In this document: piece after piece, positions 3,981 through 30,131 of the stretch
Layout: every line of letters starts with the position of its first letter
Numbering within the stretch: position 1 is the stretch's first letter
Origin: a virus
DNA: 30,131 nt
Virus record (IMG/VR): IMGVR_UViG_3300043446_002193
Location: 1 to 30,131 of that record
Direction: 5' to 3' (one strand)
Notes under the pieces: model-generated
The model's database searches: none
Seen by the model: only the letters and a program-made list of their open reading frames with translations
Told to the model about the DNA's origin: nothing
Position numbers and translations under genes: made by a program

Positions 3981-4994
3981 CTAGGCTAATGGTTCAGCGG
4001 GCGTCTCGAAAAGCTCGCGCTCCTCGGCGTCTGTGCCGTCAAGTGCGGCGCGAAGGTTCTTTACCGCCTGCCGGTAGTAAGTGTCCTTGAGTTCAAACCC
4101 GATTGCCCGCCGCCCGTTAATCAATGCGCCATAGGCTTCGCTACCTACGCCCATAAACGGAGTCAGGACAATTTCGTCAGGGTTTGTCCACAAGACAACC
4201 GCCCGCTCAATCACGTCAAGCTGTAGCGGGTGAACGTGCCGCTCGTCGTCCGCGTCTCTGGCTTCACGGTAAGGCAGCACCCGGTCAAGCCGCACGTCGT
4301 CCCAAAAAGCAGAAGCGTATTGCCTCCAAATCCAATGAGAGAAGCGGTTTTCGGTTTGCTTGCCCCTGTGTCCCTTGTATCTCTGCAATTCGTGCGGGAT
4401 AACTCGGCTGCCCGCGTAGCGATGCAGCCCCGTCGGGTGAGATACGGGCTTTTGGTTCTGTCCGTCGCGTCGGAACATAAGCAGATAGTCCGCGCTGGCA
4501 ACGTCGCAAAGGGTTGAATCCTCGACAACTTGCTTGTGAGCCAAGCCCTTTGCCATAGTGCGGTTGCGAACGCCTAGCGGCTCCTTCCAAATGTGGTAGC
4601 GGGCGCAATAGTGAAAACCAAGCCGCTCGTGAAGCCGGATTATGTCGCCGGGAAAATCAATCAGGCCAGTCCCGACATTGGCCCCGACGCCCATGCGTGG
4701 ATTGACGCCCGTGCCGGTGCCGGGGATGTCCATGCAATGAACGGCAGTGATTCTTCCGGGCTTGGTAAGCCGATAGATTTCGCGGACGACAAACTCGTAG
4801 TGAGAAAAAAACTGTTCGTAGTCTTTGCAGTTGCTCAAATCCCGTTCGTCGGAGCTGTAATTGTAAAGCCCGCAAAACGGCGGCGAATAGATGGTCATAT
4901 CCACGCGCCCGTCAGGCAGCGATTTCATGCCCTCAATACAATCGCCGTGATAAGCGGCGAAGCGGTTTTCAATGTGTGATGCGATTATAGCCAT
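3981..4994 (-). CDS. DNA methyltransferase (N4-cytosine/N6-adenine type)
   Basis: A 337-residue SAM-dependent DNA methyltransferase. The catalytic motif IV is SPPF (residues 37-40, after VDMTIY) near the N-terminus. The SAM-binding motif I (LTPFMGVGSEAYGAL, then AIGFEL) is near residues 280-310, so the order is that of the permuted beta class. SPPF favours an exocyclic amino target, with N4-cytosine as likely as N6-adenine. The start overlaps the helicase by 10 bases and has an AGGAG at a good distance. No cognate restriction enzyme is adjacent, so protection from host restriction or epigenetic marking is more likely than a complete restriction-modification system. Confidence 0.88.
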   Translation of the reverse strand: MAIIASHIENRFAAYHGDCIEGMKSLPDGRVDMTIYSPPFCGLYNYSSDERDLSNCKDYEQFFSHYEFVVREIYRLTKPGRITAVHCMDIPGTGTGVNPRMGVGANVGTGLIDFPGDIIRLHERLGFHYCARYHIWKEPLGVRNRTMAKGLAHKQVVEDSTLCDVASADYLLMFRRDGQNQKPVSHPTGLHRYAGSRVIPHELQRYKGHRGKQTENRFSHWIWRQYASAFWDDVRLDRVLPYREARDADDERHVHPLQLDVIERAVVLWTNPDEIVLTPFMGVGSEAYGALINGRRAIGFELKDTYYRQAVKNLRAALDGTDAEERELFETPAEPLA

Positions 4995-7675: not shown

Positions 7676-7935
7676 TCAAAGCCTTGAGATTTGAGCCAGT
7701 TGCGCTCGTCTTGCTTGGTATAACCGTTGATGTAAACCGGCATCATTCCAACCGGCTTAAACTCGCCGGTCTTGGCTAGCTTCCGGTAACCGCCAAGGCC
7801 GTCATGCTGCCAGCGTCCGTCAACTTGCATAACGTAGCGGAAATAACTGCCGTCGTAGTTAGGCGTGAAGACTGCATCGCCAGCGTTGCCTTGCGGCATT
7901 TTGTCGAAGAAGTTTTTAAGAACGGTGGTTTTCAT
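7669..7935 (-). CDS. Hypothetical protein, 88 aa
   Basis: A well-formed 88-residue protein, MKTTVLKNFFDKMPQGNAGD, ending ERNWLKSQGFEV. Its Tyr/Gly-rich middle (YDGSYFRYVMQVDGRW) suggests a small beta-sheet domain. It is the first gene after the promoter at 8035-8062 and is preceded by the A-rich leader at 7942-7954. No family is recognised. Confidence 0.72.
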   Translation of the reverse strand: MKTTVLKNFFDKMPQGNAGDAVFTPNYDGSYFRYVMQVDGRWQHDGLGGYRKLAKTGEFKPVGMMPVYINGYTKQDERNWLKSQGFEV

Positions 7936-7941
7936 TTTGTT

Positions 7942-7954
7942 TCGTTTCGTTTTG
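7942..7954 (-). promoter_or_regulatory. A-rich translation leader CAAAACGAAACGA
   Basis: Exact copy of the recurring 13-mer, 6 bases before ATG 7935. Here the AAACGA unit is iterated (AAACGAAACGAAACAAA). Confidence 0.5.
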
Positions 7955-7994
7955 TCTCGGCGTGATTGCCTTTGACGCGAGCCACTCTAGCTCA

Positions 7995-8024
7995 GGTGCG
8001 TCACTTGTGAAGCAGAATCGCACC
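7995..8024 (-). promoter_or_regulatory. Hairpin/operator at the 5' end of the 7935 transcript
   Basis: GGTGCG and CGCACC flank a segment containing TCACTTGTGA (4-base arms). With a start near base 8028 it would form the first stem of the transcript. It could be a repressor site or a 5' stabilising hairpin. Confidence 0.4.
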
Positions 8025-8034
8025 AGTTTTGCAG

Positions 8035-8062
8035 ATTGTAGCCGGGCTAATTTTGAAAGGCA
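8035..8062 (-). promoter_or_regulatory. Promoter, CCGGC-family copy 1
   Basis: Minus strand: TGCCTT (8062-8057), 16-base spacer ending TTAGCCCGGC, then TACAAT (8040-8035). The -10 is five of six to consensus. Architecture and spacer sequence match copies at 12778-12805 and 10979-11006. It drives the gene at 7935 and probably everything down to the methyltransferase. Confidence 0.6.
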
Positions 8063-8076
8063 CTTGGATTAGCCAG

Positions 8077-8547
8077 CTAAATACTCATTCGCATCGCCAA
8101 GGCCCGCAGGTTTTCGCACGTTATCAAATTGGGCGTGAGCCTGACAACGCGCCAGCCGCGAATGTGAGCCTCAAAGTATTTCTCGGCGTCCTTCTGAAAT
8201 CCGTCGCCCCGCGTGTGCCTGCCATTCCAGACGCCTCCCTCAATTTCAATGGCTGTCCGGCTCGCTAGGTGTGCAAAATCAAACCGCCATTTTCTCTCGG
8301 GATGAAACCGATGCTCGCGCACGAGTTCCGGCCCGCCTTCGAGTTTCCAGAGGTCCATGAACTTGATCTCAAGATGGCTCGCCTTTGCGTTCGCGTCGGC
8401 TAGGGCTTGCGTTTTCTTTTTCGTCTCACGCTCGCGCATTGAAGCCAGAAGGCTCGCAGCGGTTTCAATCTTGGGCGGCAGTTTTCCGACGCGGGAGTTG
8501 TGAGCTTGGACCTTGGCAAGATTCCAATCACGAAATGGGTTTTTCAT
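8077..8547 (-). CDS. PD-(D/E)XK endonuclease (DUF559/Vsr-like fold)
   Basis: 156 residues from ATG 8547. The C-terminal half holds a restriction-endonuclease-like core: RKWRFDFA (D90), IEIEGG (E101, E103), the conserved loop NGRHTRGDGF, then EKYFEAHIRGWRVVRLT. The same arrangement is common in small phage nucleases proposed to resolve recombination or replication intermediates. The N-terminal 60 residues are basic and helical and may bind DNA. It overlaps the previous gene as ATGA and follows the RecT/RecE pair, supporting a recombination role. Confidence 0.8.
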   Translation of the reverse strand: MKNPFRDWNLAKVQAHNSRVGKLPPKIETAASLLASMRERETKKKTQALADANAKASHLEIKFMDLWKLEGGPELVREHRFHPERKWRFDFAHLASRTAIEIEGGVWNGRHTRGDGFQKDAEKYFEAHIRGWRVVRLTPNLITCENLRALAMRMSI

Positions 8548-8789
8548 ATCTGTTTGTTTTGTTGCGTGCGAAATACGCAAAATTGCCCGTCATCAAGCCA
8601 GTAAAACTTTCGCCAGCCAATGTTTCCGCATTCGCAACGAAGGTAAACCCAAGTGCATTTGTCAGTTTTTTTCCTCTTGAAATCAACCGTCACCTTGTCG
8701 GTTTTGACTCGCTCAACCCTCATTGCCTTATTGCATAGGCAAAAGAAAGCCATGTGGTCCGTATCATCAATGCCAATGTGAATGTCCAT
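8544..8789 (-). CDS. Small cysteine-rich zinc-type protein, 81 aa
   Basis: Carries CLC near residues 17-19 and CECG near residues 52-55, then GWRKFYWLDDG, a pattern suggesting a zinc ribbon. It sits 11 bases after the RecE-like exonuclease and is coupled to the endonuclease gene, so it may be a recombination accessory factor. The protein itself is not recognised. Confidence 0.68.
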   Translation of the reverse strand: MDIHIGIDDTDHMAFFCLCNKAMRVERVKTDKVTVDFKRKKTDKCTWVYLRCECGNIGWRKFYWLDDGQFCVFRTQQNKQI

Positions 8790-8800
8790 AGGTTTTGTCG

Positions 8801-9619
8801 TTAAACCGCATACTTCGGCAAGCCAAGTTCCTTGACTTCCTGCGAGTAAGCAGGCCAGTTGTCAGCTTTGACGCACGCGGCGTAAAGCGTGAGTGCGGCT
8901 TTGTAGTCCTCGCGGCCCTTGGCAAGAAACTCCTGCGACGCCTTGAACACGTTGACCGCGTAGGGTGCAGAGTTTTCAACCGCGACAAAATAAAACTCGG
9001 TGCGCGGTTCGGTTGGCATTAGCGCATTCCACAAGTCCAAATACAACGCGGCTTGAATGTGATAGCCAAGGTCGTATGCCCGGCGCATGAATCCGCGTTC
9101 GCTTGCGTCAACGGTGGTTTTCACGTCTACGATTGCGCTTCCGGTGTTTGGCAGGAAGTCAATGCGGGCTTTGATGTCCAGTCCGTTTGCGCTGTCGTGA
9201 GCGCACAAACTGACTTCTGGCTTTCCGTCAACCAATAGGTCATGCGCCAACGGGTGCCAAGCAACCGCTTCAGCCATGCCCAGAGCGTCTCTCCATTCGT
9301 CGGCTTTCAGCACCAACAAGCCTTTCGCCTTCTGGTCAGCCTCCCATTCCTTGCAAACCTTCGCGGCGCGTGTCCATTTCTTACCCGGTTCGTATTCGTC
9401 CGGTTGAACCACAATGCCGGGAAGGGGCGTTTCCGGCTCAAGAATGAGCGAATGAGCCAGCGTCCCCATAACCATCGCGGCGGACGGCTCAAAGACTTCC
9501 GTGTCAGCTTTCAAATGCGCCGGAGTGCTTTGCCAAAGCTTTTTCAGCTTGCTCGCGGACGCTGCCGGGTGCGCGTGGTATTTGGCGGCGGGAATGTCTA
9601 GGTGTATGCCGTAATTCAC
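8801..9619 (-). CDS. RecE-type exonuclease (PD-(D/E)XK, DUF3799-like)
   Basis: 272 residues from GTG 9619, chosen because AAAGGAA precedes it and because it forms a GTGA overlap with a hidden upstream gene. The nuclease core shows GTLAHSLILEP (H56, E61), DIKARIDFL (D154), VDVKTT (D165, K167) and YHIQAALYLDLW, the order seen in lambda-exonuclease/RecE-like PD-(D/E)XK proteins. It would degrade one strand of duplex ends to give 3' overhangs for the annealase encoded just upstream. The longer frame to 9724 is out of frame with the neighbours' coupling and is rejected. Confidence 0.85.
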   Translation of the reverse strand: MNYGIHLDIPAAKYHAHPAASASKLKKLWQSTPAHLKADTEVFEPSAAMVMGTLAHSLILEPETPLPGIVVQPDEYEPGKKWTRAAKVCKEWEADQKAKGLLVLKADEWRDALGMAEAVAWHPLAHDLLVDGKPEVSLCAHDSANGLDIKARIDFLPNTGSAIVDVKTTVDASERGFMRRAYDLGYHIQAALYLDLWNALMPTEPRTEFYFVAVENSAPYAVNVFKASQEFLAKGREDYKAALTLYAACVKADNWPAYSQEVKELGLPKYAV

Positions 9620-9774
9620 TTGTTTCCTTTCTTCTTTTTGATTGGGCGGCGGTATGGTGTGTTGTACCCTACGATTTTTCCCGGCATTGAGGTTTCCTGC
9701 CAGCCATTCCAAGTGCTGAACCATTCATCTCCGTTTTTAACAATGTCCCCGACTTGAAGATACTTGTATTTCAC
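9616..9774 (-). CDS. Small conserved-type phage protein between recT and recE, 52 aa
   Basis: GTG 9774 overlaps the recT stop (GTGA) and TGA 9616 overlaps the recE GTG (GTGA), so this 52-residue frame fills the gap exactly. The sequence VGDIVKNGDEWFSTWNGW ... YNTPYRRPIKKKKGNK has the G-D-E-x-Y/W, W and Y-R-R-P pattern of a widespread family of small phage proteins of unknown function. The basic tail may bind nucleic acid. Confidence 0.75.
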   Translation of the reverse strand: MKYKYLQVGDIVKNGDEWFSTWNGWQETSMPGKIVGYNTPYRRPIKKKKGNK

Positions 9775-10448
9775 TTGCCCTCCTTTTCTTGAGCAGGCGC
9801 GGTGAGCGCAAACTGAGGCTCAACTTTGGCGGGTTTGGCTCGGGCAACCGGGTCGGTCACCACGGGCGAAATGTCAATGATCTCGTCGTCACAGTGCAGG
9901 CCCATAGTCAACTCGGGGGCAAACAGTCGGGCGAACAAAGTCGCGGCCCGGTAGCGGAGCATAAGGTCCGGCATCGTCTTCCATTTGCTTCCGCTCTTGC
10001 CGTGCCAGCCCTCAGCTTTTGCCATGCCGATAGTCACCTCTGGCGATTCAAGCACTTCGCCCTCACGGTCCTTTGCCCAAGCGATGATGCCCCAAGAGTC
10101 CGTTCCGCGTTCGCCGGTCTGACGGTATCGCAATGGCGTAAACTTGCCGCTCGCGTTGACGCACGAAATGAGAAACTGCGAACTCCAAGCCGGTTTTCCG
10201 TGGACGATGTAGAGGTTTTGCATGACGGCTAACGGGTTTGCGCCGATGCGGTTTGCCATTTCAAGCGCAATCACCGCGTCTGCAAGGTTGTCCCGGTAGC
10301 CCTGCGGAACGATGCTGCTGGACGTGAGGGCTTTCGCCATCCTCTGAGCGTTCTCAAAATTGGCAATGCTGGAAAACGCTGAGAAGCGTTCAAGCTGTGC
10401 CGTGGGTTGCTGCTGTGTTGTCATTGCTAGTTGCGTTGTGTCGTTCAT
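9771..10448 (-). CDS. recT: RecT-family single-strand annealing recombinase
   Basis: 225 residues from ATG 10448. The core SFSSIANFENAQRMAKAL, DAVIALEMANRIGANPLAVMQNLYIVHGKPAW and the later MPDLMLRYRAATLFARLFAPE are characteristic of RecT-type annealases (ring-forming, ATP-independent strand annealing). Pairing with a RecE-type exonuclease two genes downstream and an SSB-like protein upstream completes a phage recombination set. The start follows the previous stop as TAACATG. The extra 40 residues of the longer frame overlap the upstream gene and are not credible. Confidence 0.88.
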   Translation of the reverse strand: MNDTTQLAMTTQQQPTAQLERFSAFSSIANFENAQRMAKALTSSSIVPQGYRDNLADAVIALEMANRIGANPLAVMQNLYIVHGKPAWSSQFLISCVNASGKFTPLRYRQTGERGTDSWGIIAWAKDREGEVLESPEVTIGMAKAEGWHGKSGSKWKTMPDLMLRYRAATLFARLFAPELTMGLHCDDEIIDISPVVTDPVARAKPAKVEPQFALTAPAQEKEGK

Positions 10449-10449
10449 G

Positions 10450-10638
10450 TTAGGCTTTGAGTGACTGAATTTTTTGGCGCAGGCTGACGGCTTCCGTAAG
10501 GAGTTGCATGACGTGATACCAAGCAATGCGCTCCTCGGTGGTTTGGTGAACGCAAAGAGACGTTGCAAGCTCGCGCAAGTCCTGCGTAAGCAATTCTGAC
10601 GTGTCCGATGCTTTCTGTAGTGCTTCTGGTGTTTTCAT
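10450..10638 (-). CDS. Small helical hypothetical protein, 62 aa
   Basis: From ATG 10638 the protein is almost all helix (EALQKASDTSELLTQDLRELATSL, then MQLLTEAVSLRQKIQSL), likely a short coiled coil or helical bundle. It sits between the copy A hairpin and recT. The N-terminal extension of the longer frame is a translation of the hairpin repeat. Confidence 0.66.
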   Translation of the reverse strand: MKTPEALQKASDTSELLTQDLRELATSLCVHQTTEERIAWYHVMQLLTEAVSLRQKIQSLKA

Positions 10639-24918: not shown

Positions 24919-25774
24919 AACCTGAGTTTCCGTTCTTTCCCGGCCCGTATTTGATTAGGCGGGCAAGGTTGCGCTCCATAAAGCGGGCGCGGTTTTGCAA
25001 GGCGTAATTCACGATGCGCTCACAGTTGCGAATGACGCCCGGCGTTTTGTTGCCTATCGTAATGCTTGGCGAAGTCTTGTCGTCTAGGTTGGACAGGACG
25101 TAACCGTTGACGCCGTTTGCATGGCGCATAATCCAGCCGGGCAGCCTGATTCCAAGCAACTGTGCCCCGACGCCCCAACCGCCTTTCTGCTGGCCTACGT
25201 ATTTCCAAACCTGCGCCCTGTATTTCTCATACATGGACTGCGAGACATACATGATGCGGATTGATTTGTTACGGCCTAGAGGGTCTCGCCGGTTGCGGAA
25301 CTTTTGCAACGTGCGCCCGGTGCTAGGAGAGCGCAGCGATTGATGATGCTCGCGCATTTGCTCTAGCGTCTCGCCGTAAAGCTCTACGTCAACAATCGCC
25401 TTTGTTCTGTCCGTTGTGCCGCTGGGCATTATGTAATTGAACTTAAACCGTGCGCCGGACTTGCTGCGTTGAAGCCTTTTTAAGCGGGCAATGTTCAGCC
25501 ACTTTGAGTAGTTCGCGTCAGACATTACCTCGAAAACGGACTTCAAATCTTTGGCAATGGCAAGCTCGCCTTGCCTGCGGGCATTTACGTCAATGGTTTC
25601 ATACCGGCTAACGCGGGATGTTCCGCCCTGCGGTGGAGTGCGGGCGATAATCTCACGCATCAGCATCTTGGCTTCCTGCTTAAGCACCTTGCCAGCATCG
25701 CCTACGTGCATCGCCAAAGCATTCAGCCTGTCGCGGAATACCGTGTCGTCAACTTGTAGCGTGGACAGGCTCAT
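24908..25774 (-). CDS. HK97 gp10-like/tail completion protein, 288 aa
   Basis: ATG 25774 shares a base with the previous stop (TGATG). The start MSLSTLQVDDTVFRDRLNALAMHVGDAGKVLKQ, a following RTPPQGG, then a basic C-terminal half is the layout of HK97-gp10-like connector proteins (A-R-T-P-x-x-x-G after a helix). It is longer than the usual ~130 residues because of an added basic segment. It would join tail to head. Confidence 0.6.
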   Translation of the reverse strand: MSLSTLQVDDTVFRDRLNALAMHVGDAGKVLKQEAKMLMREIIARTPPQGGTSRVSRYETIDVNARRQGELAIAKDLKSVFEVMSDANYSKWLNIARLKRLQRSKSGARFKFNYIMPSGTTDRTKAIVDVELYGETLEQMREHHQSLRSPSTGRTLQKFRNRRDPLGRNKSIRIMYVSQSMYEKYRAQVWKYVGQQKGGWGVGAQLLGIRLPGWIMRHANGVNGYVLSNLDDKTSPSITIGNKTPGVIRNCERIVNYALQNRARFMERNLARLIKYGPGKNGNSGYAS

Positions 25775-26079
25775 CAGTTGGACTTTGTAAGCCCCATCGT
25801 GGACAGAATGCCGTTGACCGAATCCTGCCTTGTTAGCACCCGGTAGCCAATGCTTGAGATTGTCACCCGGTCATTAACCGTTGGCGCGGTAGCCCAGTCT
25901 CCCAAGACGGTCACAATCTCCGCGTCGCGGTTGTCTAGGTAGCCAGCGTCGCCCATATCAAGCCGCCGTTCAATGCGGTTAAATACGCACGTAACGGACG
26001 CTACGGACGACGTTACGAGAATGCCAATCTCGGTTTTGAGACTGTCTATGTCCGCGTCCATTTCGGTTGCCAAGCTCAT
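25774..26079 (-). CDS. Head-tail joining protein, 101 aa
   Basis: ATG 26079 is preferred because MSLATEMDADIDSLKTEIG is the usual opening of this kind of connector. The frame is open further to TTG 26109, 3 bases from the upstream stop, so a longer start is possible. A C-terminal barrel strand pair (DRVTISSIGYRVL) matches small head-closure proteins. It lies just upstream of the gp10-like gene. Confidence 0.62.
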   Translation of the reverse strand: MSLATEMDADIDSLKTEIGILVTSSVASVTCVFNRIERRLDMGDAGYLDNRDAEIVTVLGDWATAPTVNDRVTISSIGYRVLTRQDSVNGILSTMGLTKSN

Positions 26080-26112
26080 AGCGGTCAACGTAACAGACGC
26101 GGGCGGCAATGT

Positions 26113-26688
26113 CTAGGACGGCGGCGGGGCTTCCGTTGTCGCGCTGCTGTGGTGATATTCGTGAAGGATGCGCGGAATGTGAACGGAAGTTTTAGCAGCG
26201 GCGCAAAGGCGCGAGGCATACTGCCAGTCTTCTCCGTAACTGCTAGCCGGAAAAAAGCTCTGAACCGCTAGCCCTCTACGCCAAGCGCATACGTGCCATG
26301 CGTTGCGAAGTGTTATTCCGCCGGGATTGAATGGATGATTTGGATTGCCAAGCTGGAATTGAACTTCGGACGTGTGTTCATTTACCTGCGAATGCTGATT
26401 GAACGTCACTACGTCAACGCCGGGATTGGATTGGATAGCCCGCAAAATTTCGTCAACGTAGCCGTCGCGCACCCAGTCGTCATCATCGCAGAAAGCGACA
26501 TACTGCCCGCGTGAGGCCCGCAGCAAAGCGTCCCGTTTCTCGCCTACAGTGCGCCGCTTGTTGTCCATCAAGGTTAGATGTTCAACCGGCTTGTCGCCAA
26601 TCTGACGCGCCAGTTCGTCGGACAGCTTTTGAAGTTGCTGCCATCGGCTTGGGACGGCGGGCGTCAAGATGGAAAGAAGGATGCTCAT
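26113..26688 (-). CDS. GT2-family glycosyltransferase, 191 aa
   Basis: A compact GT-A glycosyltransferase: SILTPAVPSRWQQL at the start, RRTVGEKRDALLRASRGQYVAFCDDDDW with the acidic metal-binding cluster D68-D71, and a C-terminal SSYGEDWQYASRLC motif like the E-D acceptor site of GT2 enzymes. It would move a sugar from a nucleotide donor to an unknown acceptor. It lies among head genes, ATGA-coupled, and is the second glycosyltransferase of the block. Confidence 0.82.
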   Translation of the reverse strand: MSILLSILTPAVPSRWQQLQKLSDELARQIGDKPVEHLTLMDNKRRTVGEKRDALLRASRGQYVAFCDDDDWVRDGYVDEILRAIQSNPGVDVVTFNQHSQVNEHTSEVQFQLGNPNHPFNPGGITLRNAWHVCAWRRGLAVQSFFPASSYGEDWQYASRLCAAAKTSVHIPRILHEYHHSSATTEAPPPS

Positions 26689-26900
26689 TTTGTTTTTGTG
26701 AGTCGTTCAATTTCGCGGTCCAAATACCACCGCGCTTTTTTCAAGTCTTCAATCTTGTCTCCCTTCTCGCCCGCTCGCCAAATGTATTTCATGGCATTGC
26801 CAAGGCAAAAGTTCATGTGTTCGGTGACGGTAATGCATTCCACTCCGCTGGGGTGCGTGGTATAATGTTTCGGATGGTTTACGGGGTCGTTTGCGTTCAT
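26685..26900 (-). CDS. DUF3310 protein, 71 aa
   Basis: Clear DUF3310 signature: NDPVNHPKHYTTHPSGVECI, then GNAMKYIWRAGEKGDKIEDL and KKARWYLDREIERL. The family is widespread in phages and includes a domain of T7 gp1.7, which acts in nucleotide metabolism; the small stand-alone form has no proven role. Its presence inside the head module between glycosyltransferase genes is unusual. ATG 26900 is ATGA-coupled. Confidence 0.9.
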   Translation of the reverse strand: MNANDPVNHPKHYTTHPSGVECITVTEHMNFCLGNAMKYIWRAGEKGDKIEDLKKARWYLDREIERLTKTK

Positions 26901-27094
26901 TGTTGTGGCCTGTTAAATTCAGCGTCAACTGCCGCCGAAGATTCGTCCATCATTTTGCCAATGCGCTTTGCGGTTATTTCATCAAGCACGATGGCGCAAT
27001 GAATGTGCCGCGTCTCGCGCCATTCGTCGCAGCTCAGATAAATGTCGCCATTGTCTGCTTTAAAAAGCAGAAAACGCCTTTGCTCAATGTTCAT
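26897..27094 (-). CDS. Small hypothetical protein, 65 aa
   Basis: From ATG 27094 (ATGA overlap with the fusion gene stop): MNIEQRRFLLFKADNGDIYLSCDEW, then HCAIVLDEITAKRIGKMMDESS. A short beta start and a helix; no family is recognised. Coupled at both ends. Confidence 0.7.
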   Translation of the reverse strand: MNIEQRRFLLFKADNGDIYLSCDEWRETRHIHCAIVLDEITAKRIGKMMDESSAAVDAEFNRPQQ

Positions 27095-29316
27095 TTCGGG
27101 ACTCGGTAAATCCAAATTGGAACAAGCGGAACCGCGCCGGGAAGCAACTCGTTGACGGCCCGCATAACCTCGGCGTGTTGCGCGTCATGCCCTGCCAGCA
27201 CTGCGCCGGGCTTCATCTTTGGAAGCCAAGCGGCAATATCGCGCCTGACGCTCTCGTAATCGTGCGCGGCGTCGATGAAAACAAAGGCAAGCGACCTGTC
27301 TTCAAACCACTTCGCGCCGTTTGCTGAGTCGTCCTCAATTACGCGAATGCTGTTGCTTACTCCGCATCGTTCAATGTTTCGCGTGAATTCGGCAAGGTTG
27401 CTTCCGCCGTTTTCGGCAACGGTTTTTTCGTGCGCGGTTTGTCCTTCCTCGCCCTTGAAACTGTCAATGGCGTAAATCTGGACGTGCTTGCCCGCTCGCT
27501 TAATTCGTTGCGCGAGATACGTAATTGAGCGGCCTAGCCAAACGCCAACCTCAACGGCCTTGTCGCCATCTTTTAGCGAGTCCGCTACTAGCTTGTAGAA
27601 GTCGTAGTAGTTAAACCAACCGGGAATCGTTGACCAATCATTGCCCATCCGCAGGCGTTCCATGACGGCTTGGCCTTGCACGTAGCGGGCCGGGGCGTTT
27701 TGTTCGCTGTGCGTTTTGTCCATCGGCTCGCCCGTAAAGATGGGGTGCCGGTGGAGGAATTCAATGTGTTTGGCTTCAATAACCTGCCCTCGTGCGTAGG
27801 CAACGTCGGTGAACCAGTTGTCCGAATACACCCCAGTAAAGTCAGGATGGAACAAAAAGAAGTCTTGCCAGTAATACGCCCGCGTGCAAATCGCCATGCA
27901 AAGGAGTTTGTCCTTACGATGACCGTCAGAGACGGCCAACACGGCGGGCTTCTTTAGGTCGCCAATGGCGTTCAGAATGAGCGTGTCCCAACCCTGACAA
28001 GGCACCCAGTCGTCGGACAATTGAAGCATCACGTCGCCAATGCTCATTTGCGCCGCCGTGTTCCAAGCCGCAACGCATCCCCCGCCCGGCGTGATTTCGG
28101 CATGGTGAAAGCGGCGAAGCGGCTTGCTCTCTTCGTCGTCCTCGTCAAACACAAAGATGTGTTCAACGTTTTCGGGCTTGTCGGCCATGTCCAACCAGAC
28201 CTTGCGGCACAAAACCGCTTGCTGCGGACGGCCTCGCGTTGCGTGTAAGAGCGAGATACGGCAGCCGCCAGCTTTAGCCAGAGCCGCACGGCGGGCAACG
28301 TCAACGGCCTCACGGTGTCCATTCATCCGCAAAGCCTGCATGAGCAGGTCATCGCCAAGCCAGCCGTAAAAGCTCTGCCGATTATTCCAGTCCTTATGGA
28401 GCGGCGGGGGCGTCGCCATCATCTGCCGGGCGTAAGTCAACGCAAGCTCTGGCTTGCCGTAATCAAGCGCATTGGAGCTAAGAACGCCAAGAGCCTCACG
28501 GCGCGATGGGTCGGCACGGTAGGCTTCATGCAGCAACGTCTCGCGCATAACCGCATCGTCAGTCATGCGAGCGAGGTTCATCAGCATCTCGTATTTCTCA
28601 GCCCGGCCAAGTCGCGGGTCTTCAAATGCCTTTTGCGCCGTGCGAATGCTGCCTTCTTTGTCACCAATGCCCATCAACTCGCCGTGCAAATGGTAAAGCA
28701 AGCCGGGATGCATCTCGCTTTCTGGAATGCTTTTCAGAATTCGCAGGTTGCGCTCATTGCTGCCGCTCTTATCAAACCGGGGCGAGTGAAGAATGACTAC
28801 CCGGTCATCCTGTGCGCCTTGAATCGGCTCAATATCAAACTTGAAACACTCGTGGACTGGATACTGCCACTTGCCGCACGTGCGATTGATAAGCCTTTCA
28901 CGCGGAACACTGACGCCCAAACCGCTAATTTTGTAGGGGAAAACGTAGCAGGCGTAAAGCCCTTCGCGGGCGTGTTGCCGAATGAGTTCGCCGCCGCTTT
29001 CGAGGGTGTCGTCGGAATCGCACCAGAAACACCAGTCGTTAGAGGCTAGGTCAAAGCTCAACTGGCGGGCGGCTGCGAAGTCGTCAACGTGTTTCCAATC
29101 TTCATGGCCGGGCTTGTTCTTATACTCGCCCCACACCAAAGGAATGCCGAGTTCAGCTAGCACGCGGCGGGCAATGGCTTCCGTGTCGTCCGGTGTCGCG
29201 CTTCCAATGGCGCGAACTAGGACAACCTCATCGCAATGTGGCGCGAAGTTACGAAGGCAACGCTCAATGTATTCGGACACGTTGCCGACAATCATGCAGA
29301 GGGACACTTTACTCAT
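27091..29316 (-). CDS. Trifunctional glycosyltransferase / glycosyltransferase-like / SAM methyltransferase fusion, 741 aa
   Basis: ATG 29316 has GGAGG seven bases upstream and an ATGA overlap. Residues 1-110 form a GT2 domain (KVSLCMIVGNVSEYIERCLRNF; acidic motif CDSDD at 99-103). Residues about 190-340 are helical and TPR-like. Residues about 350-500 look like a second GT-A domain (CRISLLHATRGRPQQAV; VFDEDDEE; VAAWNTAAQMSIGDVMLQLSDDW). Residues about 575-720 are a class I SAM methyltransferase of the Methyltransf_24 type (DKAVEVGVWLGRSITYLA; AIDSF with D618; FVFIDAAHDYESV with D682; PGAVLAGHD). It probably builds and caps a glycan. It is placed among head genes, which suggests virion glycosylation, but host-glycan modification is also possible. 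Confidence 0.84.
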   Translation of the reverse strand: MSKVSLCMIVGNVSEYIERCLRNFAPHCDEVVLVRAIGSATPDDTEAIARRVLAELGIPLVWGEYKNKPGHEDWKHVDDFAAARQLSFDLASNDWCFWCDSDDTLESGGELIRQHAREGLYACYVFPYKISGLGVSVPRERLINRTCGKWQYPVHECFKFDIEPIQGAQDDRVVILHSPRFDKSGSNERNLRILKSIPESEMHPGLLYHLHGELMGIGDKEGSIRTAQKAFEDPRLGRAEKYEMLMNLARMTDDAVMRETLLHEAYRADPSRREALGVLSSNALDYGKPELALTYARQMMATPPPLHKDWNNRQSFYGWLGDDLLMQALRMNGHREAVDVARRAALAKAGGCRISLLHATRGRPQQAVLCRKVWLDMADKPENVEHIFVFDEDDEESKPLRRFHHAEITPGGGCVAAWNTAAQMSIGDVMLQLSDDWVPCQGWDTLILNAIGDLKKPAVLAVSDGHRKDKLLCMAICTRAYYWQDFFLFHPDFTGVYSDNWFTDVAYARGQVIEAKHIEFLHRHPIFTGEPMDKTHSEQNAPARYVQGQAVMERLRMGNDWSTIPGWFNYYDFYKLVADSLKDGDKAVEVGVWLGRSITYLAQRIKRAGKHVQIYAIDSFKGEEGQTAHEKTVAENGGSNLAEFTRNIERCGVSNSIRVIEDDSANGAKWFEDRSLAFVFIDAAHDYESVRRDIAAWLPKMKPGAVLAGHDAQHAEVMRAVNELLPGAVPLVPIWIYRVPK

Positions 29317-29477
29317 AGCCAAGCCTCCAAAGTGAAGCGGCACTCGCCGCAAGTTAAAGTCTGAAACGCACGCGTATTAAACCCGCGCCGGTCAAGTTCA
29401 TCCTGTGCGGCTTTAAGCCTTGCGGGCTTGCTGTCTTTCTTGAGCGGGAATCGCTTTGTCGGTTTCGGTGGTTTCAT
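29313..29477 (-). CDS. Small CxxC protein, 54 aa
   Basis: Starting at ATG 29477 the product is basic (MKPPKPTKRFPLKKDSKPAR) and then carries DELDRRGFNTRAFQTLTCGEC, ending in a short hydrophobic tail. One CxxC could bind a metal with a partner protein. A TTG start at 29615 would add 46 residues, but that stretch is dominated by RNA hairpins, so ATG 29477 is preferred. It couples to the fusion gene by ATGA. Confidence 0.6.
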   Translation of the reverse strand: MKPPKPTKRFPLKKDSKPARLKAAQDELDRRGFNTRAFQTLTCGECRFTLEAWL

Positions 29478-29641: not shown

Positions 29642-29669
29642 AAAAAAGCCCGCCGTTTCGGGCGGGCTT
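29642..29669 (-). terminator. Intrinsic terminator of the capsid operon
   Basis: On the minus strand AAGCCCGCC, six-base loop, GGCGGGCTT then a T-tract (29647-29642). The stem is a perfect 9-bp GC-rich match. It starts 17 bases past the capsid stop codon. Confidence 0.9.
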
Positions 29670-29685: not shown

Positions 29686-30131
29686 TCAATCCAGCCTCTT
29701 CAAGACGCGACCTCCGGTTGAAAGGCCACGCGCATATCCATAGTTGCACTCCATCGCTAGGTATCTGACTCCCGTAGCGTTATCATAGAATTTGCGGAGG
29801 CCCAAAACAAGGCCGGTTTCGGGGTCAGTCACCGGGCCAGCGGCCTCGTAGGTGTTGCCGGACTGGGGCTGGAGGTAACGCATCGCAATGGCAATCGCAT
29901 TCGGGTGGCACGCGAAGCCCATGACGGACGCACCGGACGCGAACAGATTATTGAGTTCGTAGAAGTCAAACCCAAGCGCACGCATGACCTTGCCCTCCTG
30001 CAAGACGCCAGTGTCGCGGAACATCTGCGCCTGAACAAAGTTCGTGACGCCGAGGAGCGCATCGTAGGGCGTGCAATCAATCAGCATGGAGCGCGGGTCA
30101 ACCGGCACGTCATTCTGATTCAGCAAGAGCC
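29686..30131 (-). CDS. Major capsid protein, C-terminal part (5' end outside window)
   Basis: The frame runs open past base 30131, so the N-terminus is missing; about 147 residues are seen. The segment TNFVQAQMFRDTGVLQEGKV then RALGFDFYELNNLF and GFACHPNAIAIAMRYLQPQ is typical of phage coat proteins of the P22/HK97-like fold (E-loop to P-domain strands). The chain ends LRKFYDNATGVRYLAMECNYG and RGLSTGGRVLKRLD. It is followed by a strong terminator, fitting a highly expressed coat gene. Confidence 0.82.
   Translation of the reverse strand, partial: LLLNQNDVPVDPRSMLIDCTPYDALLGVTNFVQAQMFRDTGVLQEGKVMRALGFDFYELNNLFASGASVMGFACHPNAIAIAMRYLQPQSGNTYEAAGPVTDPETGLVLGLRKFYDNATGVRYLAMECNYGYARGLSTGGRVLKRLD

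Follow-up and report, generated by a model that had tools for sequence, protein, structure and literature searches.

What would a phage modify with two glycosyltransferases and a methyltransferase that are joined in one polypeptide chain and encoded next to its capsid gene? The locus that raises this question lies in a 30,131-nucleotide stretch of viral DNA (IMG/VR record IMGVR_UViG_3300043446_002193), henceforth the window. Virion glycosylation has been reported in a few mycobacteriophages, with the capsid shielded by glycans. An earlier inspection of the letters and open reading frames (the sequence-only reading) had proposed that two sugar transfers and a methyl cap in one enzyme could make a short methylated glycan on the virion. 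The enzyme domains and the capsid-side position uphold this proposal, and judging from synteny a glycan on the virion is the likeliest product, the protein target being presumptive. We thus favour, at a probability of about 0.68, a cytoplasmic multi-step enzyme that equips a virion protein, probably that of the capsid, with a short glycan and an optional methyl cap.

Domain organization of the fusion protein

The fusion ORF starts with an ATG at position 29316 and ends with a stop codon at 27091-27093 on the minus strand. Its 741 residues divide as follows:

27091..29316, minus strand: GT2-TPR / GT-A / Methyltransf_24 fusion protein, 741 aa (Pfam, PHROGs, AlphaFold)
28762..29316, minus strand: domain 1, GT2 glycosyltransferase of GT-A type, SunS/ThuS-like, aa 1-185 (PF00535, VIA, conservation)
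28273..28761, minus strand: TPR-like helical repeat, aa 186-348 (AlphaFold secondary structure; TPR matches of ctKR88)
27649..28260, minus strand: domain 2, second GT-A glycosyltransferase, aa 353-556 (phrog_14945, own AlphaFold model)
27094..27621, minus strand: domain 3, class I SAM O-methyltransferase, Methyltransf_24, aa 566-741 (PF13578, structural matches)

The frame has the same length and no internal stops in six of six complete near-identical IMG/VR loci, and the codon differences are 199-223 synonymous against 21-36 non-synonymous, or about 6-10 synonymous for each non-synonymous one. The full frame kept in six loci and the excess of synonymous differences exclude a chance ORF, and the fusion is under purifying selection as a single protein. 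A frame-fusion artefact of a single assembly was likewise ruled out by the intact near-identical loci and the many distinct relatives.

Pfam, PHROGs and AlphaFold agree with the sequence-only reading of the chain as a GT2 domain, a helical spacer, a second GT-A domain and a class I methyltransferase. Pfam recognized the outer domains, with Glycos_transf_2 (PF00535) at aa 5-130 (32.5 bits, cut-off 23.3) and Methyltransf_24 (PF13578) at aa 588-711 (80.8 bits, cut-off 26.3), and its profile search gave no match to the middle domain. PHROGs recognized all three catalytic domains, with glycosyltransferase families at aa 3-346 (4.9e-17) and aa 353-544 (8.7e-17) and phrog_2675, labelled 'DNA methyltransferase', at aa 570-725 (3.9e-28). 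An AlphaFold model built from a 46-sequence alignment reached a mean pLDDT of 93.9 and a pTM of 0.85 for the full fusion, and 95.0 and 0.91 for domain 2 alone. The spacer appears in the model as a helix-turn-helix/TPR-like repeat at aa 187-348, and the equivalent region of a podovirus protein (ctKR88, see below) is matched by TPR profiles. Across the 46 diverse relatives, conservation falls on the catalytic motifs that each domain would be expected to have: D100, D102 and D103 (invariant) in domain 1; HATRGR, D435-D436 (invariant), SDN and HxHP in domain 2; and E589-G591-G595 with D682-HDY in domain 3, where E589-G591-G595-S597 is conserved. Sequence identity is highest in domain 2 and lowest in the helical repeat, which is predicted to be the binding surface for the acceptor protein.

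Fold matches of the three catalytic domains

Domain 1 together with the helices (aa 1-290) matched SunS in VIA with a Z of 24.3 over 264 aa at 2.5 A, and ThuS with a Z of 22.8; the likeness spans the glycosyltransferase and helical parts together. The SunS equivalog TIGR04195 scored 17.5 bits against an NCBIfam cut-off of 350, so domain 1 is structurally alike without being a member of that family. SunS and ThuS are peptide S-glycosyltransferases, the acceptor of SunS being a protein, and SunS-like folds also occur among GT2 enzymes with non-protein acceptors. The top PDB sequence match of domain 1 is GmaR, a GT2-TPR protein that transfers GlcNAc to flagellin (PMC9638930), and the TPR domains of FlmG recruit flagellin (PMC7591256). 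Like SunS, GmaR and FlmG illustrate that enzymes with a GT and TPR can modify proteins in the cytoplasm. SunS, ThuS and GmaR share with domain 1 a GT2 plus helical or TPR architecture and a protein acceptor; unlike the fusion, they perform a single catalytic step, and their acceptors are glycocins or flagellin. This resemblance, along with the TPR-like repeat, points to a protein as the acceptor of domain 1.

A GT-A fold at residues 345-510, on which the sequence-only reading had staked its interpretation, was recovered: the model of domain 2 matched WrtF/RmlT GT-A enzymes with a Z of 17-18 over about 190 residues, and Foldseek gave a probability of 1.00 to RmlT, TarS and TarP; GalNAc-T was a further match of the model. 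Domain 3 was closest to MeT1 (Z 20.1), a mannoside 1-O-methyltransferase (PMC9883506), and also matched MycF, SpnH and NovP (VIA range 17.4-20.1). These enzymes are alike in fold, but they stand alone, are 15-18% identical to domain 3 and, unlike the fusion, serve polysaccharide or antibiotic pathways. A homologue of domain 3 that is a separate gene at locus L168 also matches the macrocin O-methyltransferase TylF. From the resemblance to MeT1, MycF and SpnH we infer that a sugar is methylated.

These matches bear on whether the glycosyltransferases and the methyltransferase might instead act on modified bases in phage DNA. DNA modification by phage glycosyltransferases is documented (cited in PMC12619734), and phrog_2675 carries the label of a DNA methyltransferase. 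However, domain 3 belongs to Methyltransf_24 and has sugar O-methyltransferases as neighbours; it is probably not of a DNA methyltransferase family, and the phrog_2675 label, the only sign of one, is a likely misannotation. The 50 VIA matches listed include no DNA methyltransferase, which is compatible with one beyond that list. The fold of domain 1 resembles peptide glycosyltransferases, the locus lies in the head module and not among nucleotide or replication genes, and no gene of a hydroxymethyl-base pathway was recognized among the window proteins scanned. Hypermodification of DNA is therefore very unlikely, and we return to a glycan on a virion protein.

The cassette lies directly behind the capsid gene

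The genes around the fusion are, in the direction of transcription:

29686..30131, minus strand: major capsid protein, C-terminal 147 codons, running off the window (phrog_283, 1.4e-11)
29646..29669, minus strand: terminator-like hairpin and T run at the boundary of capsid gene and cassette
29313..29477, minus strand: 54-aa ORF (MKPPKPTKRF...) with an ATGA overlap at the fusion start; conserved across seven close relatives
26897..27094, minus strand: small ORF of 65 aa without known family, ATGA-coupled to the fusion stop codon
26685..26900, minus strand: DUF3310, 71 aa (PF11753, 65.9 bits), ATGA-coupled
26113..26688, minus strand: 191-aa stand-alone GT2, the cassette's second glycosyltransferase gene (PF00535, 34.9 bits; phrog_8858/14775)
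25774..26109, minus strand: head-closure/attachment-like gene at the cassette end (PF05354, 19.1 bits, cut-off 26; phrog_82, E 0.007)

Pfam and PHROGs thus agree with the gene order that had been read from the letters, in which the fusion follows the capsid gene and precedes a small ORF, DUF3310 and a second GT2. A full-length homologue at locus L006 supports the capsid call, reaching Pfam Phage_capsid_2 with 29.8 bits. Head-tail connectors had also been placed after the second GT2; a head-closure-like gene is indeed there, but the call is weak, since PF05354 falls below its cut-off. The cassette is closely followed by connector and tail genes. Four ATGA overlaps join the 54-aa ORF, the fusion, the 65-aa ORF, DUF3310 and the GT2 at four of four junctions. 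Stable hairpins lie 3' of the capsid gene in all eight relatives examined; shuffled sequence has about as many terminator-like sites as this region, and only the strongest, at 29646..29669, deserves weight. This hairpin between capsid gene and cassette could let capsid protein be produced in excess over the enzyme. Elsewhere the window encodes a RecT/exonuclease VIII pair (8801-10568) and a DNA methyltransferase (3981-4994).

The fusion accompanies one capsid family across deep divergence

Relatives were sought by domain-based scans of IMG/VR, a scan of bacterial and archaeal genomes, and capsid-based scans run with two narrow capsid alignments. In the collections scanned, 133 distinct fusions are full-length; three domains are present in 81 of them, and the other 52 have the two glycosyltransferase domains only. 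The same major-capsid family is on the locus for 126 of the 133 and the small GT2 family for 105. DUF3310 is present on only 5 of 133, all nearest relatives; of the gene set that the sequence-only reading had considered coupled, the small GT2 thus stands, and DUF3310 was ruled out as a member of the cassette. In a first set of 127 loci with capsid and fusion, the two genes always share a strand and their median gap is 131 bp; capsid identity drops to 26% among such loci. Among newly fetched loci of the capsid-anchored scan, 84 carry the fusion, 10 a partial copy and 23 none; of the others, 16 end too soon and 3 lack a capsid match to the profile. All 23 cassette-free loci fall in one distant clade, at the low-identity (34-37%) end of the scan, and in those inspected small connector-like or unassigned proteins come next after the capsid gene. 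These glycosyltransferase genes are linked to structural genes across deep divergence; one capsid family is common to all relatives, so the synteny is nested in phylogeny and does not represent many independent associations. L293-L321, a distant set with the same capsid family and no cassette, form a natural negative set.

Several relatives have other genes in or around the cassette. Inserted ORFs with abundant repeats of the GRKLTEETKQKL type lie in the gap between capsid and glycosyltransferase or behind the fusion (L002 2571-3574, L003 1736-3068 and L017 5977-6648) and look like NUMOD/HNH homing endonuclease proteins. At L034, an ORF judged by eye to resemble a DNA ligase adenylation domain (EKLDGVRALWDG, 7931-8659) directly follows the small GT2. 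In two-domain relatives the small GT2 slot is taken or adjoined by a different protein (L049 6723-7535, L044 6812-7639, L055 7231-7887 and L058 2914-3675) with a RLGDIIRLFPLA-type N-terminus that recalls GT9 heptosyltransferases; Pfam matched none of the three tested.

The linkage to the capsid gene also bears on the possibility that the enzymes alter the O-antigen, capsule or S-layer of the host, excluding other phages or changing the receptor. The nearest cellular relatives of domain 2 stand alone in Verrucomicrobiota genomes, some adjoining other glycosyltransferases; RmlT, TarS and TarP act on cell-wall polymers; and an S-layer glycan is the product of WsaE, whose domain order is methyltransferase-GT-GT (PMC2943079). 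A late-operon position, taken alone, would suit such a modifier too. Yet the cassette is fixed amid capsid and downstream head genes rather than in a lysogeny or moron position, its presence and absence track capsid clades, membrane-associated assembly genes are absent beside it, and domain 1 resembles peptide glycosyltransferases. On balance we regard modification of the host surface as unlikely. As to the host itself, stand-alone domain 2 genes in Verrucomicrobium isolates weakly suggest Verrucomicrobiota; MAG bins of similar contigs give conflicting phyla (Verrucomicrobiota and Armatimonadota).

If a virion protein is the target, it could also be a head decoration, head-tail connector or tail protein. 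The capsid group of the window ends in KRLD, its C-terminus is not Ser/Thr-rich and no obvious acceptor site is therefore visible, and connector and tail genes lie close by. Conversely, the capsid gene is the immediate and most constant neighbour of the cassette, and capsid glycans have been reported for phage Che8, with the capsid as acceptor (cited in PMC11256854 and PMC12619734; the acceptor in the former). A target other than the capsid protein is accordingly quite improbable. One capsid sub-group (L108, L109, L096 and others) ends in FTTPTT, a possible O-glycosylation tail; a Ser/Thr tail as universal acceptor was discarded, TTPTT being confined to that sub-group. The mean Ser plus Thr fraction of capsid proteins is 0.169 with the cassette and 0.138 without, a comparison confounded by phylogeny.

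A proposed route to a capped glycan

For the favoured glycan on the capsid protein, we infer the order of steps as follows. Domain 1 and the TPR-like helices would bind a structural protein of the phage, the major capsid protein from the adjoining gene being the likeliest candidate, and domain 1 would put the first sugar on a side chain of the bound protein. Domain 2 would then transfer the next sugar, drawn from a nucleotide-sugar of the host, domain 3 would O-methylate the glycan as a cap, and the stand-alone GT2 may contribute a further sugar or branch. With these steps on one chain, the intermediate would stay local and capping would be efficient. No sugar-nucleotide synthesis gene was recognized among the window proteins scanned, so the donors must be host-derived. 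Retention of one fused enzyme next to the capsid gene throughout this large and deeply divergent group of uncultured phages suggests that sugars on the capsid are important in natural waters and are more than a curiosity; a literature search for freshwater capsid glycosyltransferases returned nothing matching. Such a fusion would also be a compact tool for placing a defined methylated glycan onto proteins in the cytoplasm.

Comparison with known systems

Virion glycosylation and trifunctional GT-GT-methyltransferase enzymes are already known, and the present architecture in its capsid-side setting is a variant. The sequence-only reading had recognized neither the fusion nor its position; the 133 relatives extend both beyond the window, and precedents exist for parts and pairings. 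No isolated phage in the phage collection matched over 41% of the query, and among phage records nothing matched the capsid protein.

WsaE of Geobacillus stearothermophilus, a trifunctional enzyme of the S-layer glycan (PMC2943079), resembles the fusion, by anatomy only, in joining two glycosyltransferase domains and a capping sugar O-methyltransferase on one chain. Unlike the fusion, WsaE is cellular, has its methyltransferase at the N-terminus, works on a rhamnan that is still lipid-linked and is later transferred to protein, and has no reported peptide-glycosyltransferase/TPR module. In the cluster O mycobacteriophage Corndog, gp35-gp38 comprise an O-methyltransferase and glycosyltransferases in the structural operon, proposed as capsid modifiers (PMC4351075); by their description these are, unlike the fusion, four separate genes in the portal-protease interval. 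Pas34 of the Actinoplanes phage phiAsp2 has a homologous domain 2 and Methyltransf_24 in identical order and, like the cassette, lies downstream of structural genes, flanked on both sides by glycosyltransferase genes; it differs in lacking domain 1 and the TPR part, in a long extra C-terminal tail and in its capsid context. Conversely, the 'beta4glucosyltransferase' of podovirus ctKR88 (MW202524) has a GT2-TPR domain homologous to domain 1 and lies two genes behind the capsid gene, followed by more glycosyltransferases as in the window, but its second domain is GT-B (Glycos_transf_1), its capsid is of SU10 type and a methyltransferase is lacking.

The methyltransferase is gained, lost and swapped

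In a tree built from the two glycosyltransferase domains, at least 10 changes of state are counted for the methyltransferase, 10 being forced by the starred branches, a count that recombination within the gene could inflate. L157 has another methyltransferase with a DLGCGNG motif (its Methyltransf_23 match is weak and below cut-off), whereas its sister L158 has Methyltransf_24. L168, from a betaproteobacterial MAG, encodes Methyltransf_24 in a gene of its own, coupled to the GT-GT gene by ATGA. Repeated change and the swap at L157 fit the expectation for a cap module. Tentatively, and at somewhat less than even odds, we suggest that in a widespread lineage of uncultured phages the capsid-side glycan assembly line is fixed and the methyltransferase cap is plug-and-play, open to gain, loss, splitting off or exchange for another family, such that the virion surfaces of close relatives would differ chemically in a serotype-like manner. 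Repeated acquisition, loss and exchange of the cap amount to a natural experiment on its role. At L101 (5986-8571) the chain continues at its C-terminal end for about 130 aa beyond the methyltransferase domain. Within the phage collection the nearest methyltransferase relative, at about 40% identity, is in the 735-kb phage LR756501 (L013 3679-5585), where by eye it adjoins a GDP-mannose 4,6-dehydratase-like gene with other sugar-like genes near.
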